Both the position numbers and the translations under genes were made by a program. Under the pieces are notes generated by a model. It made no database searches. It saw only the letters and a program-made list of their open reading frames with translations, and was not told the origin of the DNA. 64,000 nucleotides of DNA from Oharaeibacter diazotrophicus. GTDB lineage: Bacteria; Pseudomonadota; Alphaproteobacteria; Rhizobiales; Pleomorphomonadaceae. The stretch covers positions 64,501-128,500 of the forward strand of contig NZ_SNXY01000010.1 of NCBI RefSeq assembly GCF_004362745.1. The letters are read 5' to 3'. Shown piece after piece: positions 11,303 to 21,809 of the stretch (positions are counted from its first letter, which is position 1; each line of letters starts with the position of its first letter).

Positions 11303-12220
11303 TCAGCCGTCGCCGAGGGCGCGCAGCGCCGCGACCGCGGCGGCCGAGCGGCTCTCGACGCCGAGCTTCTGGTAGATCACCTCGAGGTGCTTGTTCACCG
11401 TGCGCGGCGACAGCCCGAGGATCTCGCCGATGTCGCGGTTGGCCTTGCCGTGGCTGATCCAGAACAGCACCTCGGCCTCGCGGTTGGTGAGCTGGAAGCG
11501 CTCCTTCAGGAGGAAGATCCGGCCGTCGCCGTCGTCGCCGGAGAGCCGCAGCAGCACCTCGCCGCCGCCGACCCGGCCGACGAGGCTCAGCGCCAGCTTC
11601 GGCCCGTCGGGCACGGCGAGTTCGAAGCCGCCGCCGTCGCCGCCGGCGAGGCTGGCCGCGAGCCAGCGCCGCGCCGGTTCCGGCAGCAGGCTGCCGTCGG
11701 CGGTCTCCTCGAGGCTGGCGCCGATCAGCCGGCCGGCCTGGGGCGTCGTCCACAGCACCCGGCCGCCGTCCTCGACCGCCAGGAGATGGCGGCCGGTGGT
11801 GTCGAGCGCGTCGCGGGCGCTGCGGGCGGCGCGGGCGTTGGCGAGGTGGGCGCGGATCCGCGCCAGCATGGCGTCGATTACGATCGGCTTGGTGACGTAG
11901 TCGACCCCGCCGGCGGCGAAGCCCTCGACGATGTGCTCGGGCTCGGTCAGGCCGGTCATGAAGATCACAGGCACGTCGGCGGCGCGGCTCTTCTTGAGGC
12001 GGCGGCAGGTCTCGAAGCCGTCGATGCCGGGCATCACCGCGTCGAGCAGCACCACGTCCGGGGTGATCTGCTCGACGAGCTCCAGCGCCTCCTCGCCGCC
12101 GAGGGCGACCAGCACCATCGCGCCGGCCTCGTCGATGGCGTCGGTGAGGAGACGCAGGGTCTGCGGGCTGTCGTCGACCACCAGGACGACGTCGCGCCGG
12201 GGCTTCGCGTCAGGCGCCAT
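11303..12220 (-). CDS. REC-LuxR response regulator linked to the permease-kinase
   Basis: A 305-residue regulator. The receiver (about 10-125) has VVLVVDDSPQ and phospho-acceptor Asp60 (VVLLDAVMPGIDGFE). A PAS-like central stretch of about 90 residues (HLLAVEDGGRVLWTTPQAGRL onward) separates it from a C-terminal LuxR helix-turn-helix (about 245-300; LTNREAEVLFWISHGKANRDIG, SPRTVNKHLEVIYQKLGV). Its start codon overlaps the 3' end of the permease-kinase gene by 11 bp, so the two are coupled and very probably one two-component system. The likely target is the divergent urt operon, by position. Confidence 0.9.
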   Translation of the reverse strand: MAPDAKPRRDVVLVVDDSPQTLRLLTDAIDEAGAMVLVALGGEEALELVEQITPDVVLLDAVMPGIDGFETCRRLKKSRAADVPVIFMTGLTEPEHIVEGFAAGGVDYVTKPIVIDAMLARIRAHLANARAARSARDALDTTGRHLLAVEDGGRVLWTTPQAGRLIGASLEETADGSLLPEPARRWLAASLAGGDGGGFELAVPDGPKLALSLVGRVGGGEVLLRLSGDDGDGRIFLLKERFQLTNREAEVLFWISHGKANRDIGEILGLSPRTVNKHLEVIYQKLGVESRSAAAVAALRALGDG

Positions 12221-15200
12221 CGCGGTGGGCCTCCAGGCGGCGGACGAAACCCTTGAAGTCGAAGCGGTCGACGAGGGCGCGCAGCTCGCCGACCAGCGGG
12301 CCGCCGTCGGCGCCGATGCCGTCGAGACGGGCCTCGATGCCCTTGAGGTAGCCGATCCGGCCGAAGCGGATCAGGTCCTCGACGTCGCCGCCCGCGAGCG
12401 CGCCCGTCGCCGGCGCGGCGACGGCGGCGTCGGGCGCGGCGGGGGCCGGCTCCTCCTCGATCCAGTCGAGGTCGAGGAACTGGCCGATCCGCTCGATCAG
12501 GCGGGCGAGCGCGAAGGGCTTCGGCAGCGTGGCGTCGTGGGCGGCGTCCTCGCCGGTGGGGGCGTCGGCGTCGACCAGATGGGCCGACACCATCATGATC
12601 CGCCCGCCCTGGCCGCGGGCGCGCAGCGAGCGGGCGAGCGACCAGCCGTCCTCGCCGGGCATGGTGACGTCGAGCAGGAAGAGGTCCGGCGACACCGCCT
12701 CGGTCAGGTTGCGGCAGGACGCGGCGTCGGTCGCCTCCAGCACCACGAAGCCGAGCGGCCCCAGGACGTCGCGCATCAGGGCGCGCTGGTTGGCGTCGTC
12801 GTCGACCACCATGATGGTCCGCCGCGGCCCGCGGTAGCCGGTGACCGGCCGCTTCGGCTGCACCGCCGCGCCCGGCGCGTCGACCGCGGTCATCATCAGG
12901 CGGACGCGGAAGCTCGAGCCCTCGCCGGGCCGGCTGGTGAGCCGGATGTCGCCGCCCATCAGCTCGACCAGCATCTTGGTGATGGTGAGCCCGAGGCCGA
13001 GCCCGGGCACCGCCAGCGCCTCCGGCCGCGCGCCGCGCTCGAACGGCTCGAACACGCGGGCGGCGTCCTCGGGGTCGATGCCGACGCCGGTGTCGGCGAC
13101 GGTGATGGTCGCGGTCTGGCTGCGGTAGGCGACGGAGAGCGTCACCGAGCCTTCCCGGGTGAACTTCACCGCGTTGGAGAGCAGGTTGATCAGCACCTGC
13201 CGGAGCCGCTTCTCGTCGGTGCGCACCACCTCCGGCACGGTCGGCGCGCGCTCGTAGTGGAAGGCGAGGCCCTTTTCGCGCGCCTGCAGCGCGAACATCT
13301 CGACCAGGGGATCGACGAGGTCGGCGACGCGCACCTCGGCGCGCTGGATCTGCAGGCGGCCGGCCTCGATCTTGGAGATGTCGAGCAGGCCCTCGATCAG
13401 GCGGGCGAGGTGCTCGGCGCTCTTGCGGATCAGCGCGACGCGGCCGCGGCGGATCTCCGGCACCAGCGGATCGGCCTCGAGCAGCTGGGCGTAGCCGAGC
13501 ACCGCGTTGAGCGGGGTGCGGAGCTCGTGGCTGAGGCCGACGACGTAGCGGCTCTTGGCGAGGTTGGCGGCCTCGGCGGCCTCCTTGGCCTTCTGCAGCG
13601 CGGCGTCGGTGCGCTTGTGCGCCTCGATCTCGTCGAGGAGGAGGGTGGTCTGGCGCCGGGTCTCCTCCTCGGCGACGCGCCTGCTCGACTGCGCCAGCAC
13701 GAAGAACCACGTCACGATGCCGGCGACCACCAGCAGCACGAAGAAGGCGCCCCAGAGCGCGCCGGCGATGGTGGCGCCGAGGGCGGGGTCTGTCTTCGGC
13801 ACCTGGACCCAGATCAGCGTCAGCACCAGCGCGATCACGCCGGCGGACAGGGCGAGGCCGCCGCCGTATTGCACCAGCGCCGGGTCGACCCGCCGGCCGA
13901 GCGCCGCCGGCAGCAGCGCCGACAGCCCGGCCGTCACCTGCGCCTCGAAGCGCGCCTCAGGCTTGCAGACGTCGTGGCAGCGGGCGTCGAGGGTGCAGCA
14001 CAGCGAGCAGATCGGCCCGGAATAGGCCGGGCAGAACGAGGTGTCCTCGCTCTCGAAGGCGTTCTCGCAAATCGAGCAGCGGATCGCCGGCTTCAGGGCG
14101 TAGGACCGGCGCGGCTTGCGGGCGAGGGCGTAGCGCCCGCGCGTCGCCGCCGCGATCGCCGGTGCGGCGACCAGGGTGGTGGCGAGCGCGACGAAGGGCG
14201 CGAGCGCGTGGGCGGCCGGCCCGAGCACGCCCGACAGCGCCACCAGCGCCGCCGCCATCGCCGCCACCATCGAGCCGACCCCGACCGGGTTGACGTCGTA
14301 GAGATGGGCGCGCTTGAACTCGATGCCCGGCGGCGACAGCCCGAGCGGCTTGTTGATGCCGAGGTCGGCGGCGACGGTGCCGAGCCAGGACACCGCGGCG
14401 ATCGCGAACAGCCCGAGCGTCTGCTCGAGCGCCCGGTAGATCCCGAGCTCCATCAGCAGCAGCGCGATCGAGACGTTGAACACCAGCCAGACCACCCGGC
14501 CGGGGTGGCTGTGGGTGAGGCGCGAGAAGAAGTTCGACCACGCCAGCGAGCCGGCGTAGGCGTTCATCACGTTGATCTTGAGCTGCGACACCACCACCAG
14601 CAGCACGGTGGCGGCGAGCACCATGCCGTTCGAGGAGAACACCGCGGCAAAGGCGGCGTTGTACATGGTGGCGGGCTCGGCGGCGTGTTCGGGCGCGACG
14701 CCGGCCTCGAGCGCGACGACCGCGAGGAAGGACCCGAACAGCAGCTTCGGGATGCCGAGCACGATCCAGCCCGGGCCGGCGGCGAGCCAGGCGAAGGTCC
14801 AGCTCTTGGCGTTCTTCGCGGTGCGGACGGGCAGGAAGCGCAGGATGTCGACCTGCTCGCCGATCTGCGGCAAGAGCGCCAGGATCACCGACGCCGCCGC
14901 CCCGAAGCGCAGGAGGTCGAAGCCGCTGCCGTCCGCGCCGGCGTCCTGGAGGCCGGGAAAGCCGGTCCAGGCGGCGACCGCGCCGGGGTCGTGGCCGAGG
15001 ATGAACGGCAGCGGCAGGAGGTTCAGCACGATCCACAGCGGCTGGGTGCCGAGTTGGAACCGCGAGATCAGCGCGATGCCGTGGGTGACGAGCGGGATCA
15101 CGGCGAGCGACGACAGCACGTAGCCGAGCCAGAGCGGCACGCCGAGGCAGATCTCCAGCGCCGTCGCCATGATCGAGGCTTCGATCGCGAACAGGATGAA

Positions 15201-15578
15201 GGTGAAGCTGGCGTAGATCAGCGACGTCACCGTCGAGCCGACGTAGCCGAAGCCGCCGCCGCGGGTGAGCAGGTCGATGTCGACGCCGTGACGGGCGGCG
15301 TAGCGGCCGATCGGCAGGCTGGCGAGGAAGATCGCCGCGCCGGCGACCAGGATCGCCGCCACCGCGTTGGTGAAGCCGTAGGCGAGGGTGATGGTGCCGC
15401 CGATCGCCTCCAGTGCCAGGAAGGAGATCGCGCCGATGGCGGTCTGCGCCACCTGCTGGCAGCTCCAGCGCCGCGCCCGCCGCGCCGTGAAGCGCAGCGC
15501 GTAGTCCTCCAGCGTCTCGTTGGCGACGAACTGGTTGTAGTGGCGCCGAACCGGAAGGATCCGCTGCTGTCCGCTCAT
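12210..15578 (-). CDS. NCS1-like permease / 8-Cys cluster / hybrid histidine kinase fusion
   Basis: A 1122-residue membrane sensor. Residues about 1-490 form a 12-helix transporter-like domain resembling purine/cytosine (NCS1) permeases (for example GFTNAVAAILVAGAAIF, RGGGFGYVGSTVTSLIYAS). Residues 501-538 carry eight cysteines (501, 504, 516, 524, 527, 528, 534, 538), suggesting a zinc or Fe-S site. Two further helices follow (about 570-640), then a coiled coil, HisKA with His684 (GLSHELRTPLNAVLGY), HATPase (NLLSNAVKF, ADTGVGID), a receiver with Asp970 (LFLLDVTMPGEDG) and a short C-terminal tail. The architecture parallels transporter-kinases such as CbrA. Divergence from urtA suggests it senses urea or a purine-derived compound. 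Confidence 0.9.
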   Translation of the reverse strand: MSGQQRILPVRRHYNQFVANETLEDYALRFTARRARRWSCQQVAQTAIGAISFLALEAIGGTITLAYGFTNAVAAILVAGAAIFLASLPIGRYAARHGVDIDLLTRGGGFGYVGSTVTSLIYASFTFILFAIEASIMATALEICLGVPLWLGYVLSSLAVIPLVTHGIALISRFQLGTQPLWIVLNLLPLPFILGHDPGAVAAWTGFPGLQDAGADGSGFDLLRFGAAASVILALLPQIGEQVDILRFLPVRTAKNAKSWTFAWLAAGPGWIVLGIPKLLFGSFLAVVALEAGVAPEHAAEPATMYNAAFAAVFSSNGMVLAATVLLVVVSQLKINVMNAYAGSLAWSNFFSRLTHSHPGRVVWLVFNVSIALLLMELGIYRALEQTLGLFAIAAVSWLGTVAADLGINKPLGLSPPGIEFKRAHLYDVNPVGVGSMVAAMAAALVALSGVLGPAAHALAPFVALATTLVAAPAIAAATRGRYALARKPRRSYALKPAIRCSICENAFESEDTSFCPAYSGPICSLCCTLDARCHDVCKPEARFEAQVTAGLSALLPAALGRRVDPALVQYGGGLALSAGVIALVLTLIWVQVPKTDPALGATIAGALWGAFFVLLVVAGIVTWFFVLAQSSRRVAEEETRRQTTLLLDEIEAHKRTDAALQKAKEAAEAANLAKSRYVVGLSHELRTPLNAVLGYAQLLEADPLVPEIRRGRVALIRKSAEHLARLIEGLLDISKIEAGRLQIQRAEVRVADLVDPLVEMFALQAREKGLAFHYERAPTVPEVVRTDEKRLRQVLINLLSNAVKFTREGSVTLSVAYRSQTATITVADTGVGIDPEDAARVFEPFERGARPEALAVPGLGLGLTITKMLVELMGGDIRLTSRPGEGSSFRVRLMMTAVDAPGAAVQPKRPVTGYRGPRRTIMVVDDDANQRALMRDVLGPLGFVVLEATDAASCRNLTEAVSPDLFLLDVTMPGEDGWSLARSLRARGQGGRIMMVSAHLVDADAPTGEDAAHDATLPKPFALARLIERIGQFLDLDWIEEEPAPAAPDAAVAAPATGALAGGDVEDLIRFGRIGYLKGIEARLDGIGADGGPLVGELRALVDRFDFKGFVRRLEAHRDGA

Positions 15579-15830
15579 GCCCCGTCGCCGTTCCCGCCCG
15601 CCTCGCGCCCCATGCAAGATCGGGGCAGTTCGCCGATCCCCGCCGTCCGCGCCCGATCCGGGCGTCGGTCTGCCCGATTTTCGATCACCTGCCCAGGTCG
15701 TGGGCATGGCCGGTTTTACGTCAATCGACGTATGGCCGCCATGGGGCGCGGTGTCCACTCTCGGCGTCGAGCGGTGCGGCGGCCTCGGGGCCGCTCGATC
15801 GCGACCAATCCTGACAGGGGGAAGTTTCCG
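15579..15830. promoter_or_regulatory. Divergent permease-kinase / urtA promoter region
   Basis: The 252-bp gap between divergent start codons includes the palindrome TACGTCAATCGACGTA at 15717-15732 (6-bp perfect arms, 4-nt centre), a reasonable operator for the dimeric LuxR-type regulator encoded beside it. AGGGGGAAG before 15831 is the urtA ribosome site. Confidence 0.5.
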
Positions 15831-17123
15831 ATGTCGATGACGACCTGGACCCGCCGCACGGTGCTCGGCGCGATGGCCGCCGGCCTGACGCTCTCGGCGA
15901 GCGGCATCGCGCTCGCGGCCGACGACACCATCAAGATCGGCGTGCTGCACTCGCTGTCGGGCACGATGGCGATCTCCGAGACGACGCTGAAGGACACCGT
16001 CCTCTACCTCGTCGACGAGCAGAACAAGAAGGGCGGCCTGCTCGGCAAGAAGATCGAGGCGGTGGTCGTCGACCCGGCCTCGGACTGGCCGCTGTTCGCC
16101 GAGAAGGCGCGCGAGCTGATCGAGAAGGACAAGGTCACCGCCGTGTTCGGCTGCTGGACCTCGGTGTCGCGCAAGTCGGTCCTGCCGGTGTTCAAGGAGC
16201 TGAACTCGATCCTGTTCTACCCCGTCCAGTACGAGGGCGAGGAGAGCGAGCGCAACGTGTTCTACACCGGCGCCGCCCCGAACCAGCAGGCGATCCCGGC
16301 CGTCGACTACCTGATGAACGAGGAAGGCGTCGAGCGCTGGGTCCTCGCCGGCACCGACTACGTCTATCCCCGCACCACCAACAAGATCCTCGAGGCCTAC
16401 CTGAAGGCCAAGGGCGTGGCCCCCGAGGACATCATGATCAACTACACGCCGTTCGGTCATTCCGACTGGCAGTCGATCGTGTCCGACATCAAGAAGTTCG
16501 GCTCCGCCGGCAAGAAGACCGCGGTGGTCTCCACCATCAACGGTGACGCCAACGTCCCGTTCTACAAGGAGCTCGGCAACCAGGGCATCAAGGCCGAGGA
16601 CATCCCGGTCGTGGCGTTCTCGGTCGGCGAGGAAGAACTCGCCGGCCTCGACACCGGCCCGCTGGTCGGCCATCTCGCCGCCTGGAACTACTTCCAGTCG
16701 GTCGACACCGAGGCCAACGCCTCGTTCATCGACGGCTGGCACAAGTTCATCAAGAACGACAAGCGCACCACCAACGATCCGATGGAAGCCACCTACATCG
16801 GCTTCAACGCCTGGGTGAAGGCGGTCGAGGCGGCCGGCACCACCGACACCGACGCGGTGCTCGACGCGATCATCGGCGTCACCGTGCCGAACCTGACCGG
16901 CGGCTACGCCACCGTCATGCCGAACCACCACATCACCAAGCCGGTGCTGATCGGCGAGATCCAGGCCGACGGCCAGTTCGAGGTGGTGTCGGAGACCCCG
17001 CCGGTGGTCGGCGACGAGTGGTCGGACTACCTGGAAGGCTCCAAGGACCTGATCTCGGATTGGCGCAAGCCGCTGTCCTGCGGCAACTTCAACGTCGTCT
17101 CGGGCAAGTGCGGCGGCGCCTGA
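15831..17123 (+). CDS. urtA: Urea ABC transporter substrate-binding protein
   Basis: A 430-residue periplasmic binding protein of the amide/urea family. The N-terminus (WTRRTVLGAMAAGLTLSASG, cleavage near ALAADD) is a twin-arginine-like signal peptide. UrtA-typical segments include IKIGVLHSLSGTMAISE, CWTSVSRKSVLPVFKELN, LFYPVQYEGEE, TDYVYPRTTNKILE and FSVGEEELAG. It binds urea or short-chain amides and delivers them to UrtBC. It is the first gene of urtABCDE. Two strong hairpins separate it from urtB, which would favour higher expression of the binding protein. Confidence 0.95.
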   Translation: MSMTTWTRRTVLGAMAAGLTLSASGIALAADDTIKIGVLHSLSGTMAISETTLKDTVLYLVDEQNKKGGLLGKKIEAVVVDPASDWPLFAEKARELIEKDKVTAVFGCWTSVSRKSVLPVFKELNSILFYPVQYEGEESERNVFYTGAAPNQQAIPAVDYLMNEEGVERWVLAGTDYVYPRTTNKILEAYLKAKGVAPEDIMINYTPFGHSDWQSIVSDIKKFGSAGKKTAVVSTINGDANVPFYKELGNQGIKAEDIPVVAFSVGEEELAGLDTGPLVGHLAAWNYFQSVDTEANASFIDGWHKFIKNDKRTTNDPMEATYIGFNAWVKAVEAAGTTDTDAVLDAIIGVTVPNLTGGYATVMPNHHITKPVLIGEIQADGQFEVVSETPPVVGDEWSDYLEGSKDLISDWRKPLSCGNFNVVSGKCGGA

Positions 17124-17215: not shown

Positions 17216-17265
17216 TTCGTCCTTCCGGGGACCCCCGTTCCGTGTGCCCCGACCAGCTGAAACGG

Positions 17266-18891
17266 ATGCCGATGACGATCCTGCGGCTGCTCCTCACCTT
17301 CGTCCTGCTCGCCGTCGCGCCGCTCGCGGCCCGCGCGGCGACCGCCATATCCGATCCGGACCTGACGCGCCTCGTGAACGCGCTCGGCGCCGGCGGCTTC
17401 GACGAGACCGAAGCGGCGATCGCCGCGCTCGCCGCGTCCGGCGACGACCGCGTCGCCGGCATCCTCGACAAGCTCGGCGCCGGCGACCTCGTGGTCCGCA
17501 AGGCCGACCGGGCGGTGTTCCTGGCCGAGAAGGCCGGCTCCGACGTCAAGCTCGTCAGCCCGGTCGACGGCTCCGACGGCGGCGTCGTCGCCAAGGGCGC
17601 GATCGAGAAGCTCAAGGTCAACAACCGCCTGCGCCGTTCGATCGCCTCCGCCGTCGGCGCGCTGACGCTGATGAGCCCGGACGCCGCCGTGCGCCGCGCC
17701 GCCGCCGAGGCGGTGATGAAGTCGCGCGACGCCGCCGCGATCCCGGTGCTCGACCGCGCCGTCGCCGCCGAGACCGACGCCTCGGTCCGCGCCGTCATGG
17801 TCGCCGCCCGTGCCTCCGCGGTGCTCGCCTCCGACCTGCCCGAGGCCGACAAGCTCGCCGCGATCGACACCATCGGCGCCCTCGGCACCCGCGACGCCCT
17901 CGGCCTGCTCTCCGCCTACACCGGCGCCGGCGGCGCGATCGGCGAGGCCGCGACGCGCGCCGCCGCCGGCATCGAGAACGAACTCGCCCTCTGGGACGCC
18001 GGCCAGAACGTCTGGTACGGCCTGTCGCTCGGCTCGGTGCTGCTGCTCGCCGCCATCGGCCTCGCCGTCACATTCGGCGTGATGGGCGTCATCAACATGG
18101 CCCACGGCGAGATGGTGATGCTCGGCGCCTACACCACCTTCGTGGTGCAGGAGGTGATCCGCACCTCGGCGCCCGCCCTGTTCGACCTCTCGCTCCTGAT
18201 CGCCCTGCCGCTCGCCTTCCTGGTCGCCGGCGGCGTCGGCATCCTGATCGAGCGCACCGTGATCCGCTGGCTCTACGGCCGGCCGCTCGAAACCCTGCTC
18301 GCCACCTGGGGCGTGTCGCTGATCCTGCAGCAGGCGGTCCGCTCGGTGTTCGGCGCCAACAACCGCGAGGTCGGCAACCCCTCGTGGATGTCCGGCTCCT
18401 TCATGGTCGGCGAGATCCAGGTGACGTGGTCGCGCCTGTGGATCATCGTCTTCGCGATCCTGGTCTTCCTCGCCCTGCTCGCCGTGCTGCGCCGCACCGC
18501 CTTCGGCCTGCAGATGCGCGCGGTGACCCAGAACCGGCCGATGGCCTCCGCCATGGGCATCCGCACCCCGCGGGTCGACGCGCTGACCTTCGGCCTCGGC
18601 TCCGGCATCGCCGGCATCGCCGGCGTCGCGCTCAGCCAGATCGACAACGTCAGCCCCAACCTCGGCCAGGGCTACATCATCGACAGCTTCATGGTCGTGG
18701 TGTTCGGCGGCGTCGGCAATCTCTGGGGCACGCTGGTCGGCGCGCTGACGCTCGGCGTCGCCAACAAGTTCCTGGAGCCCTACGCCGGCGCGGTGCTCGG
18801 CAAGATCCTGCTGCTCGTCTTCATCATCCTGTTCATCCAGAAGCGGCCGCGCGGTCTGTTCGCGCTGAAGGGAAGGGCGATCGAGGCATGA
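17266..18891 (+). CDS. urtB: Urea ABC transporter permease UrtB
   Basis: A protein of about 541 residues. After a signal-like N-terminus (MTILRLLLTFVLLAVAPLAARAA) comes a roughly 220-residue periplasmic helical-repeat region typical of UrtB, then a LivH-type permease domain with about eight helices (from VWYGLSLGSVLLLAAIGLAVTF; conserved FGVMGVINMAHGEMVMLGAY and VVFGGVGNLWGT). It forms the urea channel with UrtC. The start is uncertain: ATG at 17266 or 17272, or a GTG at 17242. Its stop overlaps the urtC start (ATGA). Confidence 0.93.
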   Translation: MPMTILRLLLTFVLLAVAPLAARAATAISDPDLTRLVNALGAGGFDETEAAIAALAASGDDRVAGILDKLGAGDLVVRKADRAVFLAEKAGSDVKLVSPVDGSDGGVVAKGAIEKLKVNNRLRRSIASAVGALTLMSPDAAVRRAAAEAVMKSRDAAAIPVLDRAVAAETDASVRAVMVAARASAVLASDLPEADKLAAIDTIGALGTRDALGLLSAYTGAGGAIGEAATRAAAGIENELALWDAGQNVWYGLSLGSVLLLAAIGLAVTFGVMGVINMAHGEMVMLGAYTTFVVQEVIRTSAPALFDLSLLIALPLAFLVAGGVGILIERTVIRWLYGRPLETLLATWGVSLILQQAVRSVFGANNREVGNPSWMSGSFMVGEIQVTWSRLWIIVFAILVFLALLAVLRRTAFGLQMRAVTQNRPMASAMGIRTPRVDALTFGLGSGIAGIAGVALSQIDNVSPNLGQGYIIDSFMVVVFGGVGNLWGTLVGALTLGVANKFLEPYAGAVLGKILLLVFIILFIQKRPRGLFALKGRAIEA

Positions 18892-20024
18892 TCACCGGCT
18901 TTCTCCTGAACGGGTTCGACACCCGGGCGCGCGTGGTCGTCGCCCTGCTGGTCGCGGTCGCGCTGCTCGTCCCGGCGAGCAACCTCCTGCTCCCGCCCGA
19001 CAATCCGTTCCACGTGCCGACCTACGCCCTGACGCTGTTCGGCAAGTATCTCACCTATGCGCTGCTGGCGCTGTCGGTGGACCTCGTCTGGGGCTTCTGC
19101 GGCATCCTCTCGCTCGGCCACGGCGCCTTCTTCGCCATCGGCGGCTACGCCATGGGCATGTACCTGATGCGCCAGATCGGCACCCGCGGCGTCTACGCCG
19201 ACCCGATCCTGCCCGACTTCATGGTGTTCCTGAACTGGAAGGAACTGCCCTGGTTCTGGCACGGCTTCGACATGGCGTGGTTCGCTTTCGCCATGGTGCT
19301 GCTGGCGCCCGGCCTGCTCGCCTTCGTGTTCGGCTGGTTCGCCTTCCGCTCCCGCGTCACCGGCGTCTACCTGTCGATCATCACCCAGGCGATGACCTAC
19401 GCGCTGCTGCTCGCCTTCTTCCGCAACGACATGGGCTTCGGCGGCAACAACGGCCTGACCGACTTCAAGGACATCCTCGGCTTCCCCGTCCAGGCCGACG
19501 GCACGCGCTCGGCGCTGTTCGCCGCCTCGGCGCTGTTCCTCGCCGCCTTCTTCTGGCTCGCCTCGGCGATCACCCGGTCCAAGCTCGGCAAGGTGCTGGT
19601 CGCCGTGCGCGACGCGGAGAGCCGCACCCGCTTCATCGGCTACCGGGTCGAGCACTACAAGCTGTTCGTCTGGACGCTGTCGGCGATGATGGCCGGTGTC
19701 GCCGGCGCGCTCTACGTGCCGCAGGTCGGCATCATCAACCCCTCTGAGTTCGAGCCGGGCAACTCGATCGAGGCGGTGATCTGGGTCGCCGTCGGCGGCC
19801 GCGGCACCCTGGTCGGGCCGATCGTCGGCGCGATCGCGGTCAACTTCGGCAAGACCTGGTTCACCGGCGTGCTGCCCGAGGTCTGGCTGTTCGCCCTCGG
19901 CGCCCTGTTCGTCGTCGTCACGCTGTTCCTGCCGAAGGGCATCGTCGGCTGGGTGCAGGCGCGGTTCGCGGCCCGCCGCCCGGCCGCCCCGCCGGCGGCG
20001 CTGACGCCGAAGCCGGCCGAGTGA
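18888..20024 (+). CDS. urtC: Urea ABC transporter permease UrtC
   Basis: A 378-residue LivM-type permease with 8-10 predicted helices. Family hallmarks are DLVWGFCGILSLGHGAFFAIGGY, the FGGNNGLTDF segment, VAVRDAESRTRFIGY (coupling-helix region), and IEAVIWVAVGGRGTLVGPIVGA. It pairs with UrtB. The start codon overlaps the urtB stop by four bases, indicating translational coupling. The last 20 residues are Ala/Pro-rich and probably not structured. Confidence 0.95.
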   Translation: MITGFLLNGFDTRARVVVALLVAVALLVPASNLLLPPDNPFHVPTYALTLFGKYLTYALLALSVDLVWGFCGILSLGHGAFFAIGGYAMGMYLMRQIGTRGVYADPILPDFMVFLNWKELPWFWHGFDMAWFAFAMVLLAPGLLAFVFGWFAFRSRVTGVYLSIITQAMTYALLLAFFRNDMGFGGNNGLTDFKDILGFPVQADGTRSALFAASALFLAAFFWLASAITRSKLGKVLVAVRDAESRTRFIGYRVEHYKLFVWTLSAMMAGVAGALYVPQVGIINPSEFEPGNSIEAVIWVAVGGRGTLVGPIVGAIAVNFGKTWFTGVLPEVWLFALGALFVVVTLFLPKGIVGWVQARFAARRPAAPPAALTPKPAE

Positions 20025-20062
20025 TCCCGTTCCCCTGACGCCAGCCCCGGAGGGCACGATCC

Positions 20063-20815
20063 ATGAGCGACAAGTCCGAGGGCACGCTGCTCTACCTCGA
20101 CGGCGTCTCCAAGAGCTTCGACGGCTTCAAGGCGATCAACGGCCTGTCGCTGGTGCTGGAGCCCGGCGAGATGCGCGCCATCATCGGCCCGAACGGGGCC
20201 GGCAAGACCACGATGATGGACATCATCACCGGCAAGACCAAGCCCGACGTCGGCGACGTGCTGTTCGAGGGCTCGGTCGACCTGACCGCCATGGACGAGG
20301 CCTCGATCGCCAATCTCGGCATCGGCCGCAAGTTCCAGAAGCCGACGGTGTTCGAGAGCCACACCATCGAGGACAACATCGCGCTCGCCCTCAAGGCCAA
20401 GCGCGGGCCTTGGGCGACGCTGTTCCACCGCCGCACCGCCGCCGAGGCGGCGCGGATCGACGAACTGCTCGCGATCACGCGCCTCGCCGACAAGCGCCAC
20501 ATGCTCGCCGCCCGGCTCAGCCACGGCCAGAAGCAGTGGCTCGAGATCGGCATGCTGCTCGCGCAGGAGCCGCGCCTCCTCCTCGTCGACGAACCCGCCG
20601 CCGGCATGACCGACGCCGAGACCGCCGAGACCGCCATCCTGCTCAAGGAGATCGCCAAGACGCAGTCGGTGGTCGTGGTCGAGCACGACATGACCTTCGT
20701 CCGCGACCTCGGTGTCAAGGTCACCGTCTTGCACGAGGGCTCGGTGCTGGCTGAAGGGTCGCTCGACGCGGTGTCGAGCAATCCGAAGGTGGTGGAGGTC
20801 TACCTGGGGCGGTGA
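20063..20815 (+). CDS. urtD: Urea ABC transporter ATPase UrtD
   Basis: A 250-residue LivG-type ATPase. Walker A is at 42-50 (GPNGAGKTT), signature LSHGQ at 152-156, Walker B LLLVDEP at 172-178, and the switch His in VVVVEHDM. It hydrolyses ATP together with UrtE to power urea uptake. It follows urtC by 38 bp with GGAGG before the ATG. Unlike the tight spacing upstream, a 298-bp gap with inverted repeats separates it from urtE. Confidence 0.95.
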   Translation: MSDKSEGTLLYLDGVSKSFDGFKAINGLSLVLEPGEMRAIIGPNGAGKTTMMDIITGKTKPDVGDVLFEGSVDLTAMDEASIANLGIGRKFQKPTVFESHTIEDNIALALKAKRGPWATLFHRRTAAEAARIDELLAITRLADKRHMLAARLSHGQKQWLEIGMLLAQEPRLLLVDEPAAGMTDAETAETAILLKEIAKTQSVVVVEHDMTFVRDLGVKVTVLHEGSVLAEGSLDAVSSNPKVVEVYLGR

Positions 20816-20853
20816 GGGCGGTCGGGACCGTCGGCGGGGGCGGAAGGGTCGGT

Positions 20854-21053
20854 GCCCCCTCTCCCTGTCCCTCCCCCTCGAGGGGGGAGGGGACGCGGTT
20901 GCGGCGGCGAGTTGGAGAGCCAAACGTCGCCACCGAGCGGCCGGGCTACGCGCACGGCGACGACGCGGACACGGGCGCTGCGCATCCGCTCTCGCCCGGA
21001 CGTTTCCCCATCGTCCCCTCCCCCCTGGAGGGGGAGGGACAGGGAGAGGGGGC
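20854..21053. repeat. Inverted repeat pair between urtD and urtE
   Basis: The arms at 20854-20895 and 21012-21053 are near-perfect reverse complements over about 42 bp, built of CCCTCTCCCTGTCCCTCCCC and its complement. Each arm also contains its own CCCCTC/GAGGGG-type hairpin. The 116-bp centre shows no gene. The insertion interrupts an otherwise compact operon. Confidence 0.7.
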
Positions 21054-21113
21054 GAGCGGCGTCCAAGGACACACCGGGCGGACAGCCGCCGACGACAGAT
21101 CGGGACGAGGGCC

Positions 21114-21809
21114 ATGCTGAACGTCGAAACCGTCGATCTCCACTACGGCGCCGCCCAGGCGCTGCGCGGCGTGTCGCTCACCGCCGAGGCCGGTCAGGTC
21201 ACCTGCGTGATGGGGCGCAACGGCGTCGGCAAGACCAGCCTGATGCGCGCCATCGTCGGGCTGCAGTCGATCTCCGGCGGCAAGATCCTGTGGGAGGGCG
21301 CGGACGTCGCCAAGCTCACCCCGCACGACCGCGCCCGCCGCGGCATCGCCATCGTGCCGCAGGGCCGCGAGATCTTCCCGCTGCTCACCGTCGAGGAGAA
21401 CCTGCGCACCGGCTTCGCGCCGCTGGCCCGGCGCGACCGCACCATCCCGGACACCGTGTTCGAGTTGTTCCCGGTGCTGAAGGACATGCTGAAGCGCCGC
21501 GGCGGCGACCTCTCCGGCGGCCAGCAGCAGCAGCTCGCCATCGGCCGCGCCCTCGTCACCCGGCCACGCCTCCTGGTGCTCGACGAGCCGACCGAGGGCA
21601 TCCAGCCGTCGATCATCAAGGACATCGGCCGCGCGATCTCCTATCTGCGCGACCAGGGCTCGATGGCGATCGTGCTGGTCGAGCAGTATTTCGACTTCGC
21701 CAAGGAACTCGCCGACCGCTTCATCGTCATGGACCGCGGCGAGGTGGTGATCGCCGGCACGCGCGAGACGCTCGACGAGGACGAGGTGCGCGCGCGGATC
21801 ACGGTGTGA
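21114..21809 (+). CDS. urtE: Urea ABC transporter ATPase UrtE
   Basis: A 231-residue LivF-type ATPase. Walker A GRNGVGKT (34-41), Q-loop VPQGREIFP, signature LSGGQ (133-137), Walker B LLVLDEP (153-159) followed by TEGIQPSI, which is typical of UrtE. It completes the urtABCDE set. The start at 21114 fits the family N-terminus; only a weak GACGAGG ribosome site precedes it. A REPIN-like repeat follows, then the convergent hrpB. Confidence 0.95.
   Translation: MLNVETVDLHYGAAQALRGVSLTAEAGQVTCVMGRNGVGKTSLMRAIVGLQSISGGKILWEGADVAKLTPHDRARRGIAIVPQGREIFPLLTVEENLRTGFAPLARRDRTIPDTVFELFPVLKDMLKRRGGDLSGGQQQQLAIGRALVTRPRLLVLDEPTEGIQPSIIKDIGRAISYLRDQGSMAIVLVEQYFDFAKELADRFIVMDRGEVVIAGTRETLDEDEVRARITV

Follow-up and report, generated by a model that had tools for sequence, protein, structure and literature searches.

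A 1122-residue protein encoded in the window (the whole 64-kb stretch of Oharaeibacter diazotrophicus DNA that was analysed) joins an NCS1-like permease domain, a tail with eight cysteines, two extra membrane helices and a complete hybrid histidine kinase in a single chain. We consider it likely that this protein is a transceptor-type sensor of urea or short-chain amides, and that it controls the urt genes through a LuxR-type regulator. The architecture, the invariant cysteines, the gene linkage, the tail common to sensors and kinase-free permeases, and the operator come from computation, whereas we infer the identity of the ligand, the zinc, the direction of signalling and activation as opposed to repression in the following scheme. 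The permease domain would bind urea (formamide or other short-chain amides in sister groups), and binding would shift the conformation of that domain. The shift would be relayed through the cytoplasmic cysteine tail, which is probably a structural zinc finger held beneath the permease, and from there through membrane helices TM13-14 and a coiled coil to the kinase. Phosphate from the kinase would reach the LuxR-type regulator, which would bind the palindrome TACGTC-N4-GACGTA between the divergent genes and activate urtABCDE.

Architecture, fold and binding pocket

The kinase gene occupies positions 12210-15578 of the minus strand, where a single ATG-started frame runs from 15578 to 12210 with no stop. 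A large plus-strand ORF across the same region was rejected as a high-GC shadow. Pfam matched HisKA at residues 675-740, HATPase_c at 787-895 and Response_reg at 922-1031, and the whole block (residues 675-1031) is encoded at 12486-13556 on the minus strand. The phosphorylated His lies in SHELRTP (683-689) and the receiver Asp in LLDVTMPG; both are conserved, as are the H, N, G1 and G2 boxes among the sensors. With HisKA, HATPase_c, a receiver and conserved His and Asp, the protein is a hybrid histidine kinase. NCBIfam, like Pfam, recognised only this kinase part: the first 640 residues were empty above the Pfam cut-offs, with no match to a transporter family or in the cysteine segment. Pfam found no Hpt domain in the kinase protein, and residues 1040-1120 contain no conserved His. 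A hybrid kinase lacking Hpt has no evident route for phosphate to the regulator, which we count against our reading.

Residues 1-672 were modelled with AlphaFold2 from an alignment with 48 relatives (mean pLDDT 77.5, pTM 0.76). The model places 12 NCS1-like helices first, then a small mixed segment holding the cysteines, then helices at 566-592 and 598-671, the second of which runs on into a long coiled coil. The LeuT-fold permease domain, which is the proposed urea/amide-binding part, covers residues 1-480 (14139-15578, minus strand) by model and fold search. The cysteine tail, predicted from sequence, relatives and model to be treble-clef-like, covers residues 501-538 (13965-14078, minus strand), and by sequence and AlphaFold2 the two extra membrane helices leading to the kinase coiled coil cover residues 566-633 (13680-13883, minus strand). 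A full transporter fold and a complete kinase in one chain make the protein a transporter-fused histidine kinase. A preliminary description of the window had read the same four parts into one protein, and frame, Pfam and AlphaFold2 agree with it. It had also reported coupling to a LuxR regulator and divergence from urtABCDE, and both were confirmed. The partner response regulator (11303-12220, minus strand) consists in Pfam terms of a receiver (Response_reg, 12-123), a middle region and a LuxR/GerE helix-turn-helix (243-297), and the first 11 bp of its gene are shared with the end of the kinase gene. On the other side, urtA (15831-17123, plus strand) starts 252 bp from the 5' end of the kinase gene and is divergent from it. 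It encodes the substrate-binding protein of a urea ABC transporter and is the first gene of the predicted target operon, whose remainder is urtB, urtC, urtD and urtE (17242-21809, plus strand).

Searching the PDB with a profile made from the permease alignment returned nothing meaningful, so that fold comparison was needed. In Foldseek against the PDB, the top five matches of the permease domain were the NCS1 proteins CodB and Mhp1, with a TM-score of up to 0.77 on the target; other LeuT-fold families came next, and NCS1 matches ranked above SLC5 matches. The pattern of Asn and Tyr on TM8 is common to CodB, Mhp1 and the window protein, which differs from them in its long C-terminal cysteine tail and kinase. 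It also lies outside PF02133 (Transp_cyt_pur): hmmscan reported no match at any E value up to 1, and a PF02133 search of its own genome likewise gave none, while controls were detected. We count this non-match against our reading. CodB carries a stacking Trp, W108, on TM3 and Thr ligands of the Na2 site on TM8 (PMC9379551). When pocket residues were aligned to CodB through an intermediate sequence, the Na2 positions T278/T279 corresponded to K334/I335 and W108 to Phe or Leu129 in the sensors, and the position of Mhp1 Gln121 was held by an invariant Glu133. The NCS1-like assignment of the preliminary description thus holds for the fold as modelled, but does not extend to PF02133, to the Na+ site or to the stacking residue.

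Residues E57, E133, Q238, E241, Q242, N336 and N339 of the permease domain are invariant, and the pocket as aligned suits a small, non-aromatic, polar ligand. MetT, an NCS1 family metformin transporter, is an earlier case of an NCS1 protein whose nitrogenous substrate contains no ring (PMC13390362); it has no kinase, and the comparison concerns the type of substrate. All 37 amide-linked sensors had Phe at position 129, and 20 of the 32 urea-linked ones had Leu. The changes ran the same way, but the tree contains four independent pairs, too few for significance.

A permease domain with this fold might instead sense a nucleobase, hydantoin or allantoin in the manner of classic NCS1 proteins, with urt under control since degradation of such compounds yields urea; the related free-standing permeases are indeed annotated as allantoin permease or cytosine permease, where they are not called hypothetical. 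We regard this as very unlikely. The stacking Trp is replaced and Glu133 stands at the Gln121 position, both of which argue against a nucleobase; the sensor is repeatedly found next to formamidase, amidase, urt and urease genes; and an unsystematic look at annotated contexts revealed no recurrent purine or pyrimidine catabolic partners. Cytosine and allantoin, which the preliminary description had named beside urea as compounds to try, accordingly gave way to urea and short-chain amides, the likelier candidates because relatives adjoin urt, urease or formamidase/amidase genes.

The protein could also be mainly a working urea permease, whose kinase reports transport flux (a dual function) and not occupancy. 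Residues common to the kinase-free permeases are kept, including K334, which never varies among the sensors or the free permeases compared, and CbrA, a comparable transceptor with a Lys at Na2, is described as combining transport with signalling (PMC13022988). Against this, urtABCDE already provides uptake, and eight positions separate sensors from free permeases consistently. One of these is E57, replaced by F or Q in the permeases; its neighbour, position 56, is D in every free permease examined. The differences suggest altered cycling in the sensors. We give such a dual function a real but minor chance.

The cysteine tail and its kinase-free relatives

The cysteines of the kinase protein are at residues 40, 144, 501, 504, 516, 524, 527, 528, 534, 538 and 955, and those of residues 501-538 form the pattern C-x2-C-x11-C-x7-C-x2-CC-x5-C-x3-C. 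Conservation of these eight among orthologues had been set as a test of their importance. They were identical in 106 of 106 relatives, obtained by a class-wide search that made no use of the cysteine pattern (24 of them) and by a scan of genome contigs, and Cys 40 and 144 vary. The motif was likewise complete in 61 of 61 sensor loci across the phylum, whose genes are partly the same as the 106. This conservation is far beyond chance. Mean identity to the window protein among 59 sensors was highest in the cysteine segment (0.71) and the permease domain (0.61), and lower in the kinase core (0.56) and the receiver (0.41). Thus, the strongest constraint is on the input half, as expected if a fixed ligand is bound there. 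The earlier suggestion that the transporter may act as the sensor is supported.

In the AlphaFold2 model, residues 501-504 of the tail form a knuckle, a hairpin follows near 513-524, and a helix starts at the second CxxC; this predicted layout is that of a treble-clef finger. C501/C504 and C524/C527 would correspond to the CxxC pairs on the knuckle and helix start of such fingers, and a second site would be made up of C516, C528, C534 and C538. When the segment was modelled by itself, its top Foldseek matches were RING, PHD and FYVE fingers, none of them significant (best E = 0.46). Because the tail follows TM12 and a stretch rich in arginine and lysine, it should be cytoplasmic.

The same tail ends permeases that have no kinase. 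These free-standing proteins are 42-52% identical to the sensor domain (three compared directly), and those of Klebsiella, Acinetobacter and Moraxella lack TM13-14 and the kinase, usually have four tail cysteines and carry D56 and F57 where the sensors have E57. Ligand cysteines in the tail number eight in Methylovirgula, five in Streptomyces and four in Klebsiella, Acinetobacter and Moraxella (CxxC...CxxC), and in Arthrobacter and Tsukamurella the tail is recognisable with essentially none (CHVTG...SSLALSTD). The cysteine segment was therefore inherited from the permease and not invented for the kinase, and the view that it is peculiar to the junction of transporter and kinase had to be given up. 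Judged by sequence, the sensors are a permease with its own C-terminal tail, joined to TM13-14 and a kinase. The permease tree is unrooted, its outgroup being too distant, and does not fix the order of kinase gain and loss. Variants also occur: L208 (894 aa) and L241 (879 aa) are fusions near fmdA with a different-looking kinase core, no receiver and all eight cysteines, and a kinase of the same family around position 8947 of L246 has no permease domain and a degraded tail (CCNLDVCCTNNC).

These observations bear on the suggestion that the cysteine segment is a redox or metal sensor (a thiol switch, an Fe-S cluster or a site for Zn, Ni or Cu) that gates nitrogen control. The invariance of all eight cysteines in the sensors leaves room for such a role, and a metal input would make sense since urease needs nickel. 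However, the varied cysteine count of the free-permease tails indicates that the tail does not depend on the kinase and need not hold metal, which favours structural zinc. The knuckle-hairpin-helix prediction, whose weak and non-significant best matches are structural zinc fingers, and a position after TM12 that should face the reducing cytoplasm point the same way. We therefore hold redox or metal sensing to be unlikely; the tail is probably a structural, zinc-bound, cytoplasmic coupling element.

Gene neighbourhood and predicted operator

We surveyed 61 sensor loci across Pseudomonadota, taking in as much as 9 kb of flanking DNA in either direction. Genes for urt, urease or fmd (formamidase/amide transport) lay within about 9 kb in 58 of them, and the regulator was adjacent to the sensor in nearly all. 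The commonest neighbour was UrtA or a UrtA-like protein: 35 loci were beside or divergent from an amide-type, UrtA-like ABC operon, usually with FmdA and FmdB and often with aliphatic amidase, and 15 had urtABCDE. Urease was found at six loci, one of which also had amide-type ABC genes, and two were the receiver-less variant near fmdA. One contig was too short to judge its neighbours. L196 and L197 had no urea/amide genes nearby, urtA being elsewhere in both genomes, and we count these two against our reading. Among 80 loci from the genome contig scan, 74 had urtA on the DNA examined. The linkage of orthologues to urt genes, on which the preliminary description had staked its proposal, was thus found in both samples. 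On the permease-domain tree, the partner operon switched between urea and amide types several times, in keeping with a single sensor scaffold that was adapted to ligands of similar chemistry. The genome of O. diazotrophicus encodes two ureases and no close formamidase, and so fits the urea version rather than the amide version. Their alpha subunits (G000 C8:208769-210493 and C13:32078-33772), neither near the sensor, are 72% and 51% identical to that of Klebsiella.

The free permeases keep similar company. In Klebsiella the gene closes the urease cluster (ureD, ureABC, ureE, ureG, permease), in Acinetobacter it stands ahead of ureEFG...ureABC, and in Moraxella and Tsukamurella it is beside or near fmdA. 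In Methylovirgula, where formamidase and aliphatic amidase adjoin the kinase gene, it follows the kinase and regulator genes. No urease or formamidase neighbour was seen at the free permease genes of Streptomyces and Arthrobacter. By guilt by association, permeases in urease or formamidase loci would have urea or formamide as substrate. Those at L148 5956-7563, L147 7950-9557 and L149 7926-9569, annotated as cytosine/allantoin permeases or as hypothetical, are candidate urea/formamide permeases. A Klebsiella pneumoniae plasmid (CP024508.1, L143) carries a complete amide-type locus of amiF, urt-like ABC genes, kinase and regulator, in the same gene order as other sensor loci and with the formamidase annotated; it lies near the heat-shock genes clpK/hsp20. 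Klebsiella accounts for 342 of the 532 plasmid records that matched the sensor.

Against our reading, gene linkage could also reflect general nitrogen control instead of urea as the ligand. A sensor that reads general nitrogen status or contacts UrtA, with a permease fold that itself binds no urea, would agree with the frequency of UrtA beside it. We think this quite unlikely: the urease-only loci L229, L235, L242 and L243 have the sensor with no UrtA nearby, and urease or formamidase also accompanies free permeases where there is no UrtA.

The predicted operator, TACGTCAATCGACGTA, is a 7-2-7 inverted repeat at 15717-15732, 98 nt upstream of urtA. Its palindrome, TACGTC-N4-GACGTA, has a single match in the window, and that site is the one exact copy in the 5-Mb genome. 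Inverted heptamers spaced 7-2-7 are typical of sites for NarL/LuxR-type regulators, and this conserved one is the predicted site of the partner regulator with its receiver and GerE helix-turn-helix. The shorter form TACG-N8-CGTA was present in 70 of 81 non-redundant intergenic regions between the kinase and a divergent urtA or amide-type homologue, against at most nine when the regions were base-shuffled. Across loci L038-L117 (1.61 Mb), 54 of the 68 sites with no more than one mismatch were in the kinase-urtA intergenic region. At L205 and L209, where urtA is relocated, the palindrome has moved with it and lies at a distance of 2.6 or 6.4 kb from the kinase. At several amide loci, fmdA is preceded by a further copy. 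In 21 other genomes, six of seven exact sites were just upstream of amide-type genes (an amide ABC operon in three cases, fmdA in two, and in one an aliphatic amidase gene located 10 kb away). The exact palindrome at L260 position 1501 (G417 contig 1337) has no urea/amide marker nearby and lies between small ORFs and a transglutaminase-like gene. As a predicted site, the palindrome links the sensor, its regulator and the urea/amide genes in a single circuit, whatever the gene order.

Among the sensor loci scanned, the palindrome was absent from the urease-only loci and several others. The regulators of the urease-only loci should therefore use another site, and we count this absence against our reading. 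The urease-only sensor loci L229, L235, L238, L242 and L243 form a clade with L226 and L232.

Relation to known transporter-kinases

Transporter-fused kinases are a known kind of protein, and the SLC5-STAC kinases CbrA and CrbS share with the window protein the order of LeuT-fold transporter, small cytoplasmic coupling module and histidine kinase. CbrA is described as combining transport and signalling, with K196 filling the Na2 site and STAC as the coupling domain (PMC13022988); the corresponding Lys here is, by alignment, K334. CbrA and CrbS differ from the window protein in having an SLC5 domain where it is NCS1-like, and a STAC helical bundle where it has the cysteine tail and TM13-14; it also has no PAS and is linked to urea/amide genes. 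No Pfam domain lies between its permease and kinase, a region made up of the tail and two helices, which places it outside the SLC5-STAC group. By analogy, the cysteine tail most likely fills the positional role that STAC has in CbrA. The ammonium sensor kinase of Kuenenia is unrelated in transporter fold and ligand, and is not known to have a cysteine tail. In that Amt-histidine kinase fusion, a nitrogen-source transporter likewise serves as the input domain of a kinase (PMC5764959).

In the openly accessible literature, subscription papers aside, we found no description of this kinase family and no report on ligand, transport, metal or expression for its members. The family of transceptor kinases is apparently undescribed, and it is widespread in Pseudomonadota. 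To judge from the literature searched, the combination of domains, the ligand class and the regulatory circuit are new. The chances are about even for the broader proposition, in which urea/amide transceptor kinases with an inherited zinc-finger tail as transmission extend throughout Pseudomonadota, and the 'allantoin' and 'cytosine' permeases of Klebsiella and Acinetobacter are secondary urea permeases of a new urea/formamide subfamily.

Few transporter-kinase fusions are understood, and this one is a widespread second design, with an NCS1-like domain in place of SLC5 and a cysteine tail in place of STAC. The system offers a small and cheap candidate ligand, a predicted operator and kinase-free permease relatives for comparison. 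If our reading is true, Pseudomonadota would have a dedicated sensor of urea and amides. This would account for the way in which urt and formamidase genes are controlled, and it would correct the annotation of permeases encoded in urease operons, Klebsiella's included.
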